Shown here piece by piece: positions 24,704 to 34,644 of a DNA stretch of 34,644 nucleotides (its first letter is position 1; the number at the start of each line of letters is the position of its first letter). The translations under genes and the position numbers were made by a program. The DNA comes from Acidiferrobacteraceae bacterium. Lineage in GTDB: Bacteria > Pseudomonadota > Gammaproteobacteria > Acidiferrobacterales > Acidiferrobacteraceae. Location: positions 1 through 34,644 of the forward strand of contig DAHWKH010000057.1 in assembly GCA_027343725.1 (NCBI GenBank), read 5' to 3'. The notes beneath the pieces were generated by a model. That model searched no databases. It saw nothing but the letters and a program-made list of their open reading frames with translations, and was not told the DNA's origin.

Positions 24704-26872
24704 ATGGCGGAGGTCACGGTTCGGGTCGCTTTGCCCGTGCCCTTGCGGCGCGCCTTCGACTATCGGCACCCGACACCGCTCGCCCCGGGCGTGCGCGTGC
24801 GCGTGCCCTTCGGGCGGCGCGTGCTGGCGGGCATCGTGCTCGCCTCGCCCGTCGCGGCCCCGCCCGGGATCGCCTTGCGCGCCATCGCCGAGGTGATCGA
24901 TGAGGCGCCGCTTCTGAACGCCGAGCAACTGGGCCTTCTGCAATTCGTGGCCGATTACTACCATCACGCGATCGGGGAGGTCGTGTTCACGGCCCTGCCC
25001 TCGGCCTTGAAGCGCGGCCTCGTTCTGACCCCACCCAAGGCCTATCGCCTGACCCCCGCGGGCGCCCGCTCCGACGCCCCGCCGTTCCCCGCCCGCGCCC
25101 ATCGCCGCCGCGCCTTGTGGCAGGCGCTGAAGGATCGCGGCCCGCTGGCCGAGGGAGACGTGACGGCGCTTGCGCGCGGCCTGAAGCCGGTGTTGGCGGC
25201 CCTTGTCCGCGAGGGCCTCGTGGAGGTGTGTGAGCACCCGCGACCCGCTGGCGCGCCCCCCGCCGCCGGGCCGGTCTTGCGCCCCGATCAGGAGGCGGCG
25301 TGCGCGGCCGTGCGCGCGGCTCTCGGCACGTTCCAGGCCTTCCTGCTCTTCGGCGTGACCGGCAGCGGCAAGACCGAGGTCTATCTCGAGCTCATAGCGG
25401 CAGCGCGCGCGCGCGGGGACCAGGCGCTCATCCTGGTGCCGGAGATCGGACTGACGCCCCAGCTCATGGCGCGCTTTCGCGCGCGTCTCCCGGACGGCCT
25501 CGGGGTCTTGCACTCGGGCCTGAGCGAGACCGAGCGCGCGCGCGTCTGGGGGCAGGCCGCGCGCGGCGAGCTCACGGTGATCGTCGGCACGCGTTCGGCG
25601 GTGTTCGCGCCGCTCAAGCGCCTGGGTCTGATCATCGTCGACGAGGAGCACGACGGATCCTTGAAGCAGCAAGACGGGCTGCGGTATCACGCGCGCGACA
25701 TCGCGATCGTGCGCGCGCAGCGCGCGGGCGTGCCCGTGGTCTTGGGCTCGGCGACGCCCGCCCTCGAGAGCTATCGCCACGCCCTCGACGGCCGCTACCG
25801 GCTCCTGCGGCTCCCCGGTCGCGGGCCCGATCGCAGCCTGCCGCGGGTCACGATCCTGGACATGGGGCGCGAGGCCGCGGACGGGGGCTTGGGCCCGACA
25901 CTCCTTGCGGCCTTGCGCGCGCGGCTATTACGCCGCGAGCAGGCGTTGGTGTTTCTGAACCGGCGCGGCTACGCGCCCGTCCTCTTGTGCCCCGAATGCC
26001 GCTGGCACGCGCCCTGTGAGCGCTGCGACGCGCGCCTCACCGTGCATCTCGCGCGCAAGACCCTGCGCTGCCACCATTGCGGCCATGAGCGCCCGCTCCC
26101 GGCGACGTGTCCGCGCTGTGGGCACGGGCGGCTCCTGAGGGTCGGCGAGGGCACCCAGCGCCTCGAGGAGACGCTTGCGCGCGCGCTCCCCGAGGCGCGC
26201 ATTGCGCGCATCGACCGCGACACGGTGACGAGCCGGCTCGCGTTCGAGGATCTCCTCACGCGCATGCGCGCCCGGGACATCGATATCCTGGTCGGGACCC
26301 AGATGCTCGCCAAGGGCCATGACTTCGCAGACCTCACCCTGGTGGGGGTGGTCAATGCCGATCAGGGCCTCTTTGGCAGCGATTTTCGCGCCGACGAGCA
26401 GCTCTTCGCCCAGATCATGCAGGTCGCGGGCCGCGCCGGGCGCGCCGCCAAGGCCGGCGAGGTGATCATCCAGACCCACCATCCGCACCACCCCCTGTGG
26501 TCGCCCCTTGTCGCCCTCGACTACGAGGCCTTTGCCGAAGTCGCCCTCAAGGACCGTTACGAAACCGGCTTCCCGCCGTACGCCCACTGCGCGCTCCTGC
26601 GCGCCGAGGCCTTGAAGCCCGAACTCCCGCTGCGTTTTTTGGAGACGGCGCGCGCGCTCGGTCAGGGGAGCGAGGCCGTGACCCTCGGGAGCGTGTTGCC
26701 GGCGACACTCGCGCGCCGCGCCGGCTACTATCGCGCGCAACTGCTCGTAACGAGCGCCCACCGGCCGCTCCTGCAGGCCTGGCTCACGACCTGGGTCGAA
26801 CGGATCGCGCAATTGCCAGCCGGCCGCCAGGTGCGTTGGTCTTTGGATGTCGACCCCCACTCGCTCTTCTGA
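24704..26872 (+). CDS. priA: Primosomal replication restart helicase PriA
   Basis: FGVTGSGKTEVYLELI, DEEHDGSLKQQDGLRYHARD, Zn-binding CPECRWHAPCERC...CHHCGHERPLPATCPRCG. Start 24704 preferred; 24665 is an in-frame alternative. Confidence 0.94.
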   Translation: MAEVTVRVALPVPLRRAFDYRHPTPLAPGVRVRVPFGRRVLAGIVLASPVAAPPGIALRAIAEVIDEAPLLNAEQLGLLQFVADYYHHAIGEVVFTALPSALKRGLVLTPPKAYRLTPAGARSDAPPFPARAHRRRALWQALKDRGPLAEGDVTALARGLKPVLAALVREGLVEVCEHPRPAGAPPAAGPVLRPDQEAACAAVRAALGTFQAFLLFGVTGSGKTEVYLELIAAARARGDQALILVPEIGLTPQLMARFRARLPDGLGVLHSGLSETERARVWGQAARGELTVIVGTRSAVFAPLKRLGLIIVDEEHDGSLKQQDGLRYHARDIAIVRAQRAGVPVVLGSATPALESYRHALDGRYRLLRLPGRGPDRSLPRVTILDMGREAADGGLGPTLLAALRARLLRREQALVFLNRRGYAPVLLCPECRWHAPCERCDARLTVHLARKTLRCHHCGHERPLPATCPRCGHGRLLRVGEGTQRLEETLARALPEARIARIDRDTVTSRLAFEDLLTRMRARDIDILVGTQMLAKGHDFADLTLVGVVNADQGLFGSDFRADEQLFAQIMQVAGRAGRAAKAGEVIIQTHHPHHPLWSPLVALDYEAFAEVALKDRYETGFPPYAHCALLRAEALKPELPLRFLETARALGQGSEAVTLGSVLPATLARRAGYYRAQLLVTSAHRPLLQAWLTTWVERIAQLPAGRQVRWSLDVDPHSLF

Positions 26873-27049
26873 AGAGCGATCGCGCCCCGCCTCAGGCCCC
26901 CTTGTCGGCCTCGAAGGCCGGAAGGTCTGTCTTGCACCAAGAGGGGCGGCAGGGCCCTTGCGAAGCCCCATCCCGGTGCGCCGCCTCGGGGCCAAGCGGC
27001 GGCACGCGCGGCTTTGGACGGATGGGCACGGCCGCGAAGTCCTGCTATT

Positions 27050-27165
27050 GCAAGGCTTACTCATCCTTATCCACCGGCAAAGATTCAGAAATCTTTTCCG
27101 GTACGAACCTTGCTTAAGGCCTGCCGTCCCCGTCGGGGACGGGGGCTTGGAGCCCTCCGGCAGGC
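27050..27165 (+). ncRNA. Candidate structured leader / cis-regulatory RNA upstream of the beta-barrel gene
   Basis: GCAAGG (27050-27055)/CCTTGC (27108-27113) encloses CCGGcAAAGATT-CAGA-AATCTTTtCCGG (27074-27101), followed by a three-way-junction-like fold at 27119-27165. Confidence 0.35.
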
Positions 27166-27206
27166 GCCTGGACGGCGTCATTCGTCATCGTCAACAAGGG
27201 AGATTT

Positions 27207-28331
27207 ATGCACACACGCTACTTCACTCTACCGCTCGCCGCCCTGGGGCTTGCCTGCGCGCTCCCCGCGCACGCGGCGATCACTCTCGCCCCGCCCACCT
27301 CGTTTTCGGCGGGCCCGCTCGGGACTCTCTCCGCTCAGGGGATCCTGAGCGCGGCCGGCACCTGGCAAGGCCAGCCGTATCCGGGCAACCACAGCACGCG
27401 GCTCGATGTGACCAACGCGCAGATGATCCTGCAAAAGAGCTCGGGCCTCGTGCAGTTCTATGTGCAGGCCGGCGCCTACAACTTCCCGACGTTGGGCGAG
27501 CCGATCCAGCGCACTGCGTCCCTGGTCGCCAACACCTACGGGGTCGTCCCCGAGGCCTACCTCACGATCGCGCCCAGCAAGGGCTTCTCGGTGGAAGTCG
27601 GCAAGCTGCCGACCTTGGTCGGTACCGAAATGACCTGGACGTGGCAAAACCAGAACATCGAGCGCGGTCTTTTGTGGAATGACGAGAACGCCGTCAACCG
27701 CGGCGTTCAGGTGAACCTCTCCCATGGCCCGCTGGCCCTGTCCCTGTCGGTCAACGACGGGTTCTACTCGCAGCGCTACGATGTCCTCACGGGGCTTGCC
27801 ACCTACACCATCGATCGCGCGAACACCGCCTCGTTCTCCTGGTATCACCGCTTCGGCCACAGCGCCGTCAATACCTTCGTGACGCCCGTCGTGCTCGATA
27901 ACGCCGACATCTACGACCTCATGTACACGCACACGAGCGGGCCCTGGACGATCTCGCCCTACCTGCAATACATCGTCTCGCCCAAGGCCGCCTCGCTCGG
28001 CTTCACGAAGACCGAGCACGCCGGTGGGGCGGCGATCATCGCCGATTACCAGATGACGCGGATGGTCTCGCTCGCGGGCCGCGCCGAGTACGAGACGAGC
28101 TCCGGCGCCAACAGCACCACCAGCGCCAACAGCAACATCCTGGGCTTCGGGCCCGGCAGCAAGGCGTGGTCTCTGACCGTGACCCCGACCTACCAGGACC
28201 ACGGCTTTTTCACCCGCGTGGAGTTGTCCTATGTGCACGTCACCAACGCCACCGCGGGCGATGTCTTCGGGGCCGCCGGCAACCGCGCGAACCAGGTCCG
28301 CGCGATGCTGGAAACCGGCGTCACCTTCTGA
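27207..28331 (+). CDS. Outer-membrane beta-barrel (porin-like) protein, possibly BBP2-type
   Basis: Start set at ATG 27207 after AAGGGAGA. Signal peptide MHTRYFTLPLAALGLACALPAHA, alternating amphipathic strands, terminal aromatic ...MLETGVTF. Confidence 0.8.
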   Translation: MHTRYFTLPLAALGLACALPAHAAITLAPPTSFSAGPLGTLSAQGILSAAGTWQGQPYPGNHSTRLDVTNAQMILQKSSGLVQFYVQAGAYNFPTLGEPIQRTASLVANTYGVVPEAYLTIAPSKGFSVEVGKLPTLVGTEMTWTWQNQNIERGLLWNDENAVNRGVQVNLSHGPLALSLSVNDGFYSQRYDVLTGLATYTIDRANTASFSWYHRFGHSAVNTFVTPVVLDNADIYDLMYTHTSGPWTISPYLQYIVSPKAASLGFTKTEHAGGAAIIADYQMTRMVSLAGRAEYETSSGANSTTSANSNILGFGPGSKAWSLTVTPTYQDHGFFTRVELSYVHVTNATAGDVFGAAGNRANQVRAMLETGVTF

Positions 28332-31300: not shown

Positions 31301-31583
31301 AGGTGTGATGGATGCCGCGCATCCCGCGCAGGATCGCCTCGAGCGGATCGACCACGAGGTTCTTGATCTCGCGCGGGCTCGCGCCGGGCTTTCGGATGAG
31401 GATGTTCGCCGCCGGCACGACGATCTGCGGATTCTCCGTGCGCGGGGTGAGGTGCAGCGCCAAGAATCCCGCGGCCAGGGCCGCGATGATGATGAGGATC
31501 GTGAGCTTGCTCTCGATGAAGTAGCGCGTGAGCCGCCCCGATATGTTGAGCGGTTCCTCGGGAAGGGGGCCGGGAGCGGGCAT
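28365..31583 (-). CDS. RND-family efflux permease
   Basis: ALILALGLLVDDSIVVIENIFRHY (TM4 Asp pair), ALAGIVVRNSLLLIDFILDYR, repeated ACR_tran architecture, 1072 aa. Confidence 0.94.
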   Translation of the reverse strand: MPAPGPLPEEPLNISGRLTRYFIESKLTILIIIAALAAGFLALHLTPRTENPQIVVPAANILIRKPGASPREIKNLVVDPLEAILRGMRGIHHTYGTAFDSLGVVTVKFKVGENRVASLVRLYNKIMSNMSRMPPGTAQPVIQPLDVNQVPIVTISLATRRLNGVALRDLAVRVLHHLRRAPGTSLAYVIGGQRRKIDVILDPRLMRRYDVTLRTVQGVVEAANVDIPSGHFTHHNRRTTVHAGDMLRSAREVGDTVVSLYAHKPVYLHDIATVVDGGGRIKTVHAIGFGRAYAKPRPRDLELPEATIAIAKRAGTNAVTVADAVLHKLRALEGPVIPHFVHVNVTRNDGQRANSAVNTLIEHLFIAVTTVVVLLVLFLGWRAAAIVTVTIPLILFVTLAIAYLGGQTINRITLFALILALGLLVDDSIVVIENIFRHYAKPGIDRAREAILAVNEVGRPTNLATLAVIVAFLPMLSVTGMMGPYMAPIPKNVPIAMISSLFVAYTVAPWAARLWLRAHPTAENTGPGFLQRGYERIMRALLSRALTRGGFLLTIVLLLAAVLAMPVFRLVNFKMLPRNNNNSFDITVRTHAGSTLEDTQRVVEALGNIVRRDHYVTTYDLSAGAMGAVNFSGLLRGATLKHGPTVGEVQVHLVRKSERSVSSITIVRRLRPAVTRLARRTGAMIKIVQHPPGPPVRATVMAEVFGPRYHKVERIANDLRYGLFAHTRHLVGVDSTVPHRSRQDTVEVNRRLAANDGVSPGDVAQTLKTFLAGISDGTAHIPHAKEPVPIRLRVRTADRAGPYDLGRVFVTNPEGKEIPLSALTRVVRKTAPRPIYQKDGRDVVYVTAGMSHGSPVYAVLHMWEYLKHHTVDGVHLKQDFMQDPSSLHYGLRWSGEMRLTLNVFRDLGSAFGVAIGLIYMILVGYYRSFMIPLIVMGSIPLTIIGVFPGHALLHQFFTATSMIGVIALAGIVVRNSLLLIDFILDYRRAGHPLTEAVIQAGMVRLRPIMLTALAIMLGTAIMIVDPVFGGLAISLIFGTLASTVLTLFVIPLGYFGYARFAERHQPDKASRD

Positions 31584-31592
31584 AGGGTCCTC

Positions 31593-31961
31593 TTAGCGGG
31601 CGTTGACGGGGTGCACGGGGCTGCCGTCGTCGACGGCGCGGAACGGGGGCAGGATCAGCGTCTCGTCACCGCTCAATCCGCTCAAGACGACGGCCGTGCG
31701 CCGGCCCACGCGTCCGATCTTCAGGAGCCGGAAGCGCGCGCGCCCGTGCTCGAGCACGAATACGCCGGGCCAACCCCCGAATCGCGTGATGGCACGGCGC
31801 GGGATGCGAATGTCACCGTGGCGATCGACGTCCGCCGGCCGCTTCAGGGTCACGACCGCCCGGGTCAGGGTCGGCAGGACCGCGCGCGGCGCCGGCTTCG
31901 GCGGGGTGCGCGTGCAGGCCGCAAGCGCAAGCATCGCGCCGAGGAGCGCTGCGCGCCTCAC
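31593..31961 (-). CDS. Minimal (~122 aa) RND periplasmic-adaptor-like lipoprotein: membrane-proximal domain only
   Basis: GTG 31961 overlaps the upstream TGA as GTGA. Protein MRRAALLGAMLALAAC(lipobox)TRTPPKPAPRAVLPTLTRAVVTLKRPADVDRHGDIRIPRRAITRFGGWPGVFVLEHGRARFRLLKIGRVGRRTAVVLSGLSGDETLILPPFRAVDDGSPVHPVNAR resembles the C-terminus of RND adaptors. Confidence 0.75.
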   Translation of the reverse strand: MRRAALLGAMLALAACTRTPPKPAPRAVLPTLTRAVVTLKRPADVDRHGDIRIPRRAITRFGGWPGVFVLEHGRARFRLLKIGRVGRRTAVVLSGLSGDETLILPPFRAVDDGSPVHPVNAR

Positions 31962-33325
31962 GGTTTGAGCCCCAGGGCGGGGAGCGTTGCGGGCGAGAGC
32001 GTGCCGCAGGCATCGGCGAGGGCGGCGCGGTTGCGCGCGAGCGCATAGCGCGCGGCGAGCTCGTCCTCGCGGGCCTTGACGAGGCCTTGGTCGGCGTTCA
32101 GGAGGTTGAGCAGAATCGTGCGCCCTTCGCCGTAGAGCACCTGCACGAGGGCCACGTTGCGCCGCGCGCGTTGCACGGTCGCGCGCGCGAGTATCAGGCG
32201 CTGCGCGGCGTTGTAGAGCGCGTCGTAGGCGGTGACCACGCTGCGGCGGATGCGGTCCTCGAGCCCGGTGAGCGCGGCCTCGGTCTCGGCGGCCCGGGCC
32301 TCGAGTTCCGCCGCCCGGTCGCCGTTGTGGCCGCCGTCGTACAAGGACTTGCTGATGACCGCGCCCACGGTCCAGGCGTTGTGCCGGAACGTGGGCACGC
32401 GACTGAACCATTGCGACTGGGCGGTCAGCGTCACGTGCAGCGAGGAGCGCCCGCGCGCCGCCGCGCCTTGCGCGCGCAAGGCGCGGATCTTGGCGCGCAG
32501 CGCCGCCACGTCGGCGCGATGCCGGAGGGCGACCCGCAGGAGCTGGCGCAGGGGGCGGCGCGGCATGGCGACCGGCCCGAAGGTCTGGGCGGGGATGTGG
32601 ATGGCAAGCCCCGCAGGCGCGCCCATGGCGAGCGCGAGATCCGTGCGCGCGTTGGCGACGTCGTTTTGCGCGCCCAAGAGGAACTCGCGGGCGGCGCCGA
32701 GATTGACCGCGGCCGTGAGCGCATCCGAGTGGAGGATGCGCCCGCGCGCGTACAGGCGGCGCGTGGTGTGGGCATGACGCGCGGCCACGGCCACCGCCCC
32801 TCGGGCGACCCGGACCCCGGCCTTGGCCATCACGAGGCCTTCATAGGCGGTGACGACCGTAGCCACGATGCGTTGCCGGGTGCGCGCCCCGGCGCGTCCC
32901 GCCGCTTGCTTCGCGAAGCGCCCGGCGCGCACCGCGTCGTGGATCGCGCCACCCTCGTAAAGCGGCCAGGCGAGGGACAAGGACGCCGTGCCCAGGCGGC
33001 GCACGCCGGGGCTATTGAGGGTGCTCGGTGTGAATGCCTGGGCGCTCACCTGGCGGCGTTCGAGTTCCGCCGACAGCGCCAGGAGCGGGTTGTCGCTGAA
33101 AAGATAGCCGTAGCTTGCCGTCGCCCGCACCGAGCCCTCGCTTTGCGCGGCGCGCAAGGCGGCGCGCGCCTGCGCCTGGCGTGCGCGCGCCAGGGCCTGG
33201 GCGCTGCTGTGACGGAGGGCATAACGCACGGCCGCGCTCAAGGGGAACGTCCGGCCGCGTGCCAGCGGCAGGGTCGCCACGAGGGCTATGACGATCACGA
33301 TCAGAGGCAGCCGGCCCATACACAC
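31958..33325 (-). CDS. TolC-family outer-membrane efflux protein
   Basis: LSLAWPLYEGGAIHDAVRAG...VGAVISKSLYDGGHNGDRAAELEARAAETEAAL...VTAYDALYNAAQRL, about 455 aa with signal peptide. Start may be the internal ATG at 33319. Confidence 0.9.
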   Translation of the reverse strand: MCMGRLPLIVIVIALVATLPLARGRTFPLSAAVRYALRHSSAQALARARQAQARAALRAAQSEGSVRATASYGYLFSDNPLLALSAELERRQVSAQAFTPSTLNSPGVRRLGTASLSLAWPLYEGGAIHDAVRAGRFAKQAAGRAGARTRQRIVATVVTAYEGLVMAKAGVRVARGAVAVAARHAHTTRRLYARGRILHSDALTAAVNLGAAREFLLGAQNDVANARTDLALAMGAPAGLAIHIPAQTFGPVAMPRRPLRQLLRVALRHRADVAALRAKIRALRAQGAAARGRSSLHVTLTAQSQWFSRVPTFRHNAWTVGAVISKSLYDGGHNGDRAAELEARAAETEAALTGLEDRIRRSVVTAYDALYNAAQRLILARATVQRARRNVALVQVLYGEGRTILLNLLNADQGLVKAREDELAARYALARNRAALADACGTLSPATLPALGLKP

Positions 33326-33415: not shown

Positions 33416-33826
33416 CTAAAACCGCGGCTTCACCACCACCAGGATCACGATCGCCATGAGGATCACGGCCGGGATCTCATTGATGATCCGATAGAACCGG
33501 TGACTTCGTTTGTGTCCGGCCGCGAGCTCGCGGCACAGGACCCCGAGGTAGACGTGGTATGCGGCCAACACTGCGACCAGCGCGACCTTGATATCGAGCC
33601 ACGCGCCCCGGAAGCCGAAGCCCCACCACAGCCACAGCCCGAGCGCGATGGCGAGCACCGCGCTCGGCGTCGTGAACCGGTAGAGACGGCGCTCCATGAC
33701 CACGAACCGCGCGTGCCCGGGTTCATCGTCGGTGAGCGCGTGGTAGACGAACAGGCGCGGAAGGTAAAAGAGCCCGGCGAACCACGTCACCACGAATATG
33801 ATATGAAAGGCTTTAATCCAGAGCAT
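33416..33826 (-). CDS. hemJ: HemJ-type protoporphyrinogen IX oxidase (membrane protein)
   Basis: MLWIKAFHIIFVVTWFAGLFYLPRLFVYHA...FRIINEIPAVILMAIVILVVVKPRF-type C-terminus. Start trimmed to ATG 33826. Confidence 0.88.
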   Translation of the reverse strand: MLWIKAFHIIFVVTWFAGLFYLPRLFVYHALTDDEPGHARFVVMERRLYRFTTPSAVLAIALGLWLWWGFGFRGAWLDIKVALVAVLAAYHVYLGVLCRELAAGHKRSHRFYRIINEIPAVILMAIVILVVVKPRF

Positions 33827-34644
33827 GGCAAGCGTCCATAGGGCAGTCCGTGCGCCCATGCGGCTGCGCCAACAGGGTGGCGAGCAGCGAATCGAGGTAA
33901 CGAAAGCCGCGCGTGCTCGCCATCACCCGCTCGCCGGTATCGACCAAAAGGCCGTTCGCGAGCGCGCCCGCGGCCGCGGGCACCCGCGATCGAAAGCTGT
34001 CCCCGATGCGTTCCTGGAACAGCGCGTGCGTGAAGCCCGCGCGCAGGCGCAGGGCGTTCATAAGAAACTCCGCGACCTCCTCGTCGCCCGTGAGCGTCCG
34101 CCGGCTCACCACCGGTGCGTCGTTCTCCATGTAGCGACGCACGTCGGGGTCGCGCACGCAGCGCATCACACCGTGTTCGCCGCTCAGTTTGCTGTGGGCC
34201 CCGGCGCCGAGCCCCAGATAATCCCCGAAGGTCCAGTAATTGAGGTTATGGCGGCAATCATGATCGGTGCGCGCATAGGCCGAGACCTCGTAACGGGTAA
34301 GGCCCGCGGCCTGTGCCTCGCCCTGCACGGCCTCCTCGATCGCGGCCGCCGTCTCTTCCTTGGGCAGCGGGGGCGGGCTGTGGCCGAAGGCCGTATGCGG
34401 CTCGATCGTGAGCTCGTAGAGCGACACGTGCGGGGGCCCGAAGGCCAGGACACCGCGAATGTCGGCCCGGGCCTCGGCGAGGCTTTGCCCCGGCAGTGCG
34501 TACATGAGATCGACATTGACCGAGGCAAAGCCCGCGCGTAGCGCGCTCTCGAGGGCGCTACGCGCCTCGGCGGCGTCGTGGACACGCCCCAAGGCCCGCA
34601 ACAGAGGGTCCTGAAGGCTTTGCACGCCGAGCGAGAGGCGTGTG
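33813..34644 (-). CDS. hemW: HemW-like radical SAM protein (coproporphyrinogen oxidase-like), N-terminus beyond right window edge
   Basis: TRLSLGVQSLQDPLLRALGRVHDA...VNVDLMYALPGQSLAEARADI...SLYELTIEPHTAF...YWTFGDYLGLGAGAHSKL. Confidence 0.9.
   Translation of the reverse strand, partial: TRLSLGVQSLQDPLLRALGRVHDAAEARSALESALRAGFASVNVDLMYALPGQSLAEARADIRGVLAFGPPHVSLYELTIEPHTAFGHSPPPLPKEETAAAIEEAVQGEAQAAGLTRYEVSAYARTDHDCRHNLNYWTFGDYLGLGAGAHSKLSGEHGVMRCVRDPDVRRYMENDAPVVSRRTLTGDEEVAEFLMNALRLRAGFTHALFQERIGDSFRSRVPAAAGALANGLLVDTGERVMASTRGFRYLDSLLATLLAQPHGRTDCPMDACHALD

Follow-up and report, generated by a model that had tools for sequence, protein, structure and literature searches.

A predicted membrane-proximal-domain-only adaptor in an RND efflux operon conserved in the Acidiferrobacterales

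The window considered here, i.e. the whole stretch of DNA that was analysed, is 34,644 nucleotides long and corresponds to contig DAHWKH010000057.1 of the Acidiferrobacteraceae bacterium assembly GCA_027343725.1. It contains an efflux operon of the resistance-nodulation-division (RND) type, in which the gene between those of a TolC-type outer membrane factor (OMF) and an RND permease encodes a protein of 122 amino acids (aa), here called the mini-adaptor. Its open reading frame (ORF) is intact and runs on the minus strand from a GTG start at 31961 to a stop at 31593 (Table 1). The start codon overlaps the stop codon of the OMF gene (31958-33325), and the permease gene starts at 31583, about 10 bases after the mini-adaptor stop. 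The flanking proteins contain the domains OEP (PF02321, E=2.8e-37) and ACR_tran (PF00873, E=3.3e-154), and the mini-adaptor itself has the sequence VRRAALLGAMLALAACTRTPPKPAPRAVLPTLTRAVV...IPRRAI...GVFVLEHGRARFRLLKIGRV...VLSGLSGDETLILPP...VHPVNAR. An earlier note, made from the letters of this DNA alone, had claimed an intact lipoprotein of about 122 aa between a tolC-like gene and an RND gene, with a GTGA-coupled start and tight spacing; the reading frame, the lipobox LAAC, the flanking domains, and the distances between the genes confirm this description.

Sequence comparison and structure prediction identify the mini-adaptor as an RND periplasmic adaptor that consists of the membrane-proximal (MP) domain and nothing else. 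Of its sequence, only the C-terminal part is recognised by the NCBIfam model TIGR01730 (RND_mfp), with residues 45-118 aligning to positions 248-321 of 322 in the model (E=4.6e-6). A Pfam search returned no match to the mini-adaptor, including the HlyD and lipoyl models, which do match a full-length adaptor (L097) from the sister operons described below. The AlphaFold2 model, calculated from the window protein and 18 homologues, has a mean predicted local distance difference test score (pLDDT) of 92.2. In a Foldseek comparison with the PDB, the best matches are the MP domains of MexA, TriABC, AcrA, TMexC, and BesA over about 75 residues (Foldseek probability 1.00), with superpositions mostly at 1.3-2.0 Å and at 6.6 Å for TriABC. 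A profile search of PDB sequences agrees with the fold match and has TriABC (6vej) as its best hit (E=4e-7). The two-part layout proposed in the earlier note is borne out by the model, in which PRAVLPTLTRAVV coincides with the strand predicted at residues 32-38, and the MP segment with the strands of residues 51-120. An unrelated fold, which would have spoken against this layout, was looked for with AlphaFold2 and Foldseek, and the fold is that of an adaptor MP domain.

The MP, β-barrel, lipoyl, and hairpin domains are regarded as the core domains of all RND-associated adaptors (PMC8277102). In the mini-adaptor, an N-terminal strand and a C-terminal β-roll together make up an MP domain, a lipidated N-terminus is predicted from the lipobox, whose cysteine is invariant in 26 homologues, and the gene lies beside those of an RND permease and an OMF. 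The β-barrel and the lipoyl domain are absent from the 122 aa according to Pfam, AlphaFold2, and the profile comparison, as is the α-hairpin with its OMF-binding tip of the RLS type; RLS-like motifs are present in five of the sister full-length adaptors. The mini-adaptor descends from RND adaptors, yet it lacks the barrel, lipoyl domain, and hairpin by which the family is structurally defined.

Table 1. Features of the mini-adaptor operon and its upstream neighbours in the window.
Feature	Position	Strand	Remarks
Mini-adaptor gene	31593..31961	(-)	122 aa putative lipoprotein, predicted MP domain only
Lipobox cysteine codon (Cys16, LAAC)	31914..31916	(-)	invariant in 26 aligned homologues
N-terminal strand of MP domain, residues 32-38	31848..31868	(-)	AlphaFold2, DSSP
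C-terminal MP segment, residues 51-120 (IPRRAI...VHPV)	31602..31811	(-)	
TolC-type OMF, 455 aa	31958..33325	(-)	PF02321; AlphaFold2 and Foldseek match to TolC/OprM/CusC
OMF periplasmic tip turn 1, residues 194-198	32732..32746	(-)	clade-specific Arg196 (TolC L148)
OMF periplasmic tip turn 2, residues 397-402	32120..32137	(-)	clade-specific Arg402 (TolC T366) and Gly399
RND permease, 1072 aa	28365..31583	(-)	PF00873
HemJ/UPF0093-family membrane protein, upstream of operon	33416..33859	(-)	PF03653; neighbour conserved in the order
HemW/HemN-like radical S-adenosylmethionine protein, partial	33813..34643	(-)	PF06969; neighbour conserved in the order

The short form is widespread in the order Acidiferrobacterales. 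The single mini-adaptor sequence has matches in 40 of 60 relatives, the weakest of which are full-length adaptors, and in a profile search the mini-adaptor scores above 100 bits in about 38 of the 57 genomes of the order. Thirty homologues translated from their starts comprise 116-134 aa and carry a lipobox without exception, and the homologue alignment has 16 invariant columns. The short form is also found in six genomes from four other gammaproteobacterial families (L082-L087; 369 genomes of the class sampled). A wider set of 399 genomes from the phylum yielded no additional short form above the threshold, and the displayed matches outside the class lie in frames of 344-434 aa, except for one of 192 aa. 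An apparent mini-adaptor in a further genome (G248, L088) was rejected as a full-length adaptor cut by a contig end. One more genome of the order (G046:C277:27995-28378) has an interrupted homologue, in which about 17 additional codons separate residues 72 and 75.

As the mini-adaptor falls far short of the usual adaptor length (about 370 residues) and most of the genomes are metagenome-assembled, it could be regarded as a decaying remnant or as an assembly or sequencing artefact. This reading is refuted by the conservation data, and its remaining chance is negligible: the short form recurs across the order and in other families, and its presence in the single-contig genomes G005, G023, and G028 excludes an assembly artefact. 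In addition, the ratio of nonsynonymous to synonymous substitution rates (dN/dS) is 0.14-0.35 in close species pairs and thus well below 1, and the mini-adaptor, with its invariant residues, is under purifying selection. The earlier note had favoured function over decay and had pointed to relatives with a full-length adaptor at this locus as the contrary case; the relatives hold the short form, at 103-134 aa across all fetched loci, in the same operon.

The layout of the operon is conserved together with the gene. At the fetched loci, an OMF (mostly about 440-455 aa), a mini-adaptor, and an RND permease (mostly 1061-1083 aa) are encoded, and the three genes are adjacent wherever a mini-adaptor with intact flanks was found. 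At one locus (L073:8640-9035, genome G029), a small DUF559-like ORF with repeat-like flanks is seen by eye between the mini-adaptor and RND genes. Operons with full-length adaptors (L089-L101) have the matching OMF-adaptor-RND order in nearly all cases, with adaptor ORFs of 361-431 aa and RND permeases of mostly 1088-1116 aa. The mini-adaptor profile matches these sister adaptors strongly at the C-terminus and weakly in the N-terminal lipoprotein and strand region, with about 200-240 residues in between. A loss of the barrel, lipoyl, and hairpin parts from the middle of an adaptor would be expected to leave such a pattern, which upholds the earlier suggestion of an internal reduction to one domain.

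A tree calculated with a quick method from 53 RND permeases groups all 25 permeases from mini-adaptor operons together, and the branch that sets them apart has a support of 100 in the Shimodaira-Hasegawa-like approximate likelihood ratio test (SH-aLRT). Their sister group consists of gammaproteobacterial RND permeases with full-length adaptors, and the deeper groups likewise have full-length adaptors; the mini-adaptor label requires one change on this tree versus a mean of 17.9 after shuffling. Because the permeases form one clade whose sister and deeper groups have full-length adaptors, the simplest reading is that the reduction happened once, long ago, and was then inherited vertically. This is further supported by the neighbourhood of the operon, since neighbourhood clustering shows that rph, rdgB, hemW, a thioredoxin-like gene, and hemJ are conserved beside it in the order. 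In the proposed scenario, the β-barrel, lipoyl, and hairpin domains would have been lost internally once, in the ancestor of this RND clade, from an adaptor encoded in the same OMF-adaptor-RND operon, and this single-loss step is supported by sequence, fold, and tree.

The conserved neighbours also bear on the suggestion that an extra periplasmic protein supplies the bridge between permease and OMF. Greene et al. had to leave this possibility open for the adaptor BesA (PMC3807786), whereas neither the operon nor the conserved genes listed above provide a candidate here, and this explanation appears very improbable. On the other side of the operon, a porin-like outer membrane protein with a signal peptide is seen by eye at 26847-28331, convergent with the RND gene.

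The partner OMF has the OEP repeats and the β-barrel/α-barrel fold of a TolC-type OMF, and its fold and length are otherwise those of ordinary TolC, OprM, and CusC relatives (Foldseek). It differs at its periplasmic tips. Arginine is found at the positions of TolC L148 and TolC T366 in all 33 OMFs from mini-adaptor operons and in none of 22 OMFs from operons with full-length adaptors, and the sister OMFs (L089-L101) have the hydrophobic residues V, I, L, and M there instead. Nine OMF positions are diagnostic for mini-adaptor operons versus their sisters, and three of them lie in the two tip turns (P about 0.004). In the AlphaFold2 model (pLDDT 84.9), residue 196 is located within the turn 194-198 and residue 402 ends the turn 397-401. 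In known pumps, the adaptor hairpin docks with its RLS motif at exactly this tip (PMC3391258). Here the hairpin is missing and its docking site on the OMF has been rewritten; the two events correlate on one branch, which falls short of proving a causal link. Because only the membrane-side domain of the adaptor remains and the docking tips of the OMF are altered, the pump of this operon cannot assemble in the textbook way.

In the partner permease, the residues of the proton relay are present as D426, D427, R974, R1004, and T1011, which correspond to D407, D408, K940, R971, and T978 of AcrB; K940 is replaced by arginine, as in the sister clade, and the other four are conserved. Thirty-seven clade-diagnostic positions are spread over the protein, and the few near the top of the AcrB funnel (V253, G257, Y790) are not significant. 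The sister RND permeases (L089-L101) have an insert of about 14 aa after transmembrane helix 7, which is absent from the mini-adaptor type and from most outgroups; a loss of this segment in the mini-adaptor clade was considered and rejected, since its absence from most outgroups identifies it as an insert of the sister clade. The aromatic residues of the AcrB drug pocket (F136, F178, F610, F615, F628) are mostly replaced in the permease of the mini-adaptor operon and in the sister clade, and the substrate is therefore probably not a typical AcrB drug. The HemJ-like gene and the HemW-like gene (33416-34643), which immediately precede the OMF gene and are found there order-wide, are a weak hint at an export related to porphyrin or haem.

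For the function of such a pump, MexAB-OprM provides a model, in which the MP domain of MexA contacts PN2 of the MexB protomer T and shifts MexB into the active form (PMC7532149). By analogy, the mini-adaptor, presumably exported and lipid-anchored as its lipobox indicates, may bind the porter domain of the RND trimer like a collar and activate the permease. The duct-building role of the adaptor would have been given up and the activating collar retained, and the OMF would either rest directly on the funnel of the permease or be fixed via a different contact, for which the two invariant tip arginines, six per OMF trimer, are the best candidates. A direct contact of TolC with the permease has experimental precedent in in vivo crosslinks and surface plasmon resonance, and older direct-contact models had proposed it (reviewed in PMC4446572). 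The whole explanation, consisting of an MP-only adaptor derived by a single internal loss, an RND-activating collar, and TolC tips that are bound directly or through a modified interface, is judged to have even chances of being right. A more specific version, i.e. a widespread natural pump in which an Arg-tipped OMF sits directly on the RND funnel with an MP-only activating collar and no adaptor duct, is a tentative proposal that is somewhat more likely to be wrong than right.

Several points weigh against this explanation. According to a 2026 review, the periplasmic domain of AcrB is unable to bridge the distance to TolC when AcrA is missing (PMC13328181), and neither the RND permease nor the OMF, both checked for inserts, has gained length or a domain that could make up for this. 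The change of the tip arginines and the reduction of the adaptor each happened once and on the same branch, so that only two one-time events are being correlated. Furthermore, the same genomes encode several full-length adaptors for other RND permeases, which might be shared.

Adaptor rings can consist of two different adaptors, as those formed by TriA and TriB. Accordingly, the mini-adaptor might form a mixed ring with a full-length adaptor from elsewhere in the genome, which would supply the barrel, lipoyl, and hairpin domains and dock TolC. The several full-length adaptors in the genomes fit with this alternative, as does the ability of known adaptors to serve more than one RND permease, but the tips of the OMF are changed exactly where such a hairpin would dock. 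In the closed relative G005, the six other adaptor-bearing RND operons each have an adaptor adjoining the RND gene, and the operon of interest has only the mini-adaptor. A possible partner without a permease of its own is encoded at L157:3883-6236 (genome G000, contig C177), where an orphan adaptor of 299 aa with lipoyl and HlyD_3 matches, apparently hairpin-less, is followed by a TolC-type OMF. This pair without an adjacent permease is conserved in family f1 (16 genomes) and has two weak partial matches outside this family (E about 1e-12), and it also occurs in G001 and G007, both of which have no mini-adaptor. The orphan adaptor, itself apparently devoid of the hairpin, was rejected as a general trans partner because of this limited distribution and its presence in the two genomes without a mini-adaptor. 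On balance, the mixed ring is an unlikely explanation.

It is also conceivable that the permease and the mini-adaptor deliver their substrate to the periplasm only, or function as an RND accessory pair, while the OMF encoded with them is used by a different transporter or for passive export. A duct cannot be formed by an MP domain on its own, and some transporters of the RND superfamily function without a tripartite one. The constant adjacency of the OMF, mini-adaptor, and RND genes and the clade-specific OMF changes that track the RND clade argue against this separation, which is regarded as improbable.

A pump with an activating collar and no adaptor duct would separate two roles of adaptors, RND activation and duct building, and the existence of a working RND-OMF pump of this kind becomes a directly testable question. 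The order has cultivable members, presumably relatives of Sulfuricaulis and Acidiferrobacter, and the sister group with full-length adaptors is a clean source for domain-swap controls. If direct docking is true, the pump would be a living test of direct-contact versus tip-to-tip assembly. A search of the open-access literature for minimal, truncated, or short adaptors, with subscription journals outside its scope, returned no report of an MP-only adaptor.

Compared with adaptors of known systems, the mini-adaptor shares with the MexA/AcrA type the MP domain composed of an N-terminal strand and a C-terminal segment, the lipobox, and the location in an RND operon, but not the β-barrel, lipoyl domain, hairpin, and RLS docking motif. 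The sister operons (L089-L101) have mostly the same gene order and homologous MP domains, whereas their adaptors are full-length. TriABC (PDB 6vej), the best sequence match among solved structures, has two adaptors with other domains in contrast to the one MP-only protein found here. Another natural loss of modules is known from the EmrA-type adaptors of the major facilitator superfamily (PMC4158417), but in the opposite direction, as EmrA has no MP domain and keeps the rest. The closest parallel is BesA from the BesCAB system of Borrelia burgdorferi (PDB 4KKS/4KKT/4KKU; PMC3807786), which, like the putative lipoprotein described here, is a lipidated, hairpin-less adaptor encoded in an OMF-adaptor-RND operon; it was already considered perhaps the most serious problem for tip-to-tip models (PMC4446572). 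The MP domain of BesA superposes on the mini-adaptor at 1.3-1.5 Å. However, BesA keeps the MP, barrel, and lipoyl domains and has lost only the hairpin (PMC3807786); the mini-adaptor family with its 122-aa member goes beyond BesA, since the barrel and lipoyl domains are removed as well.
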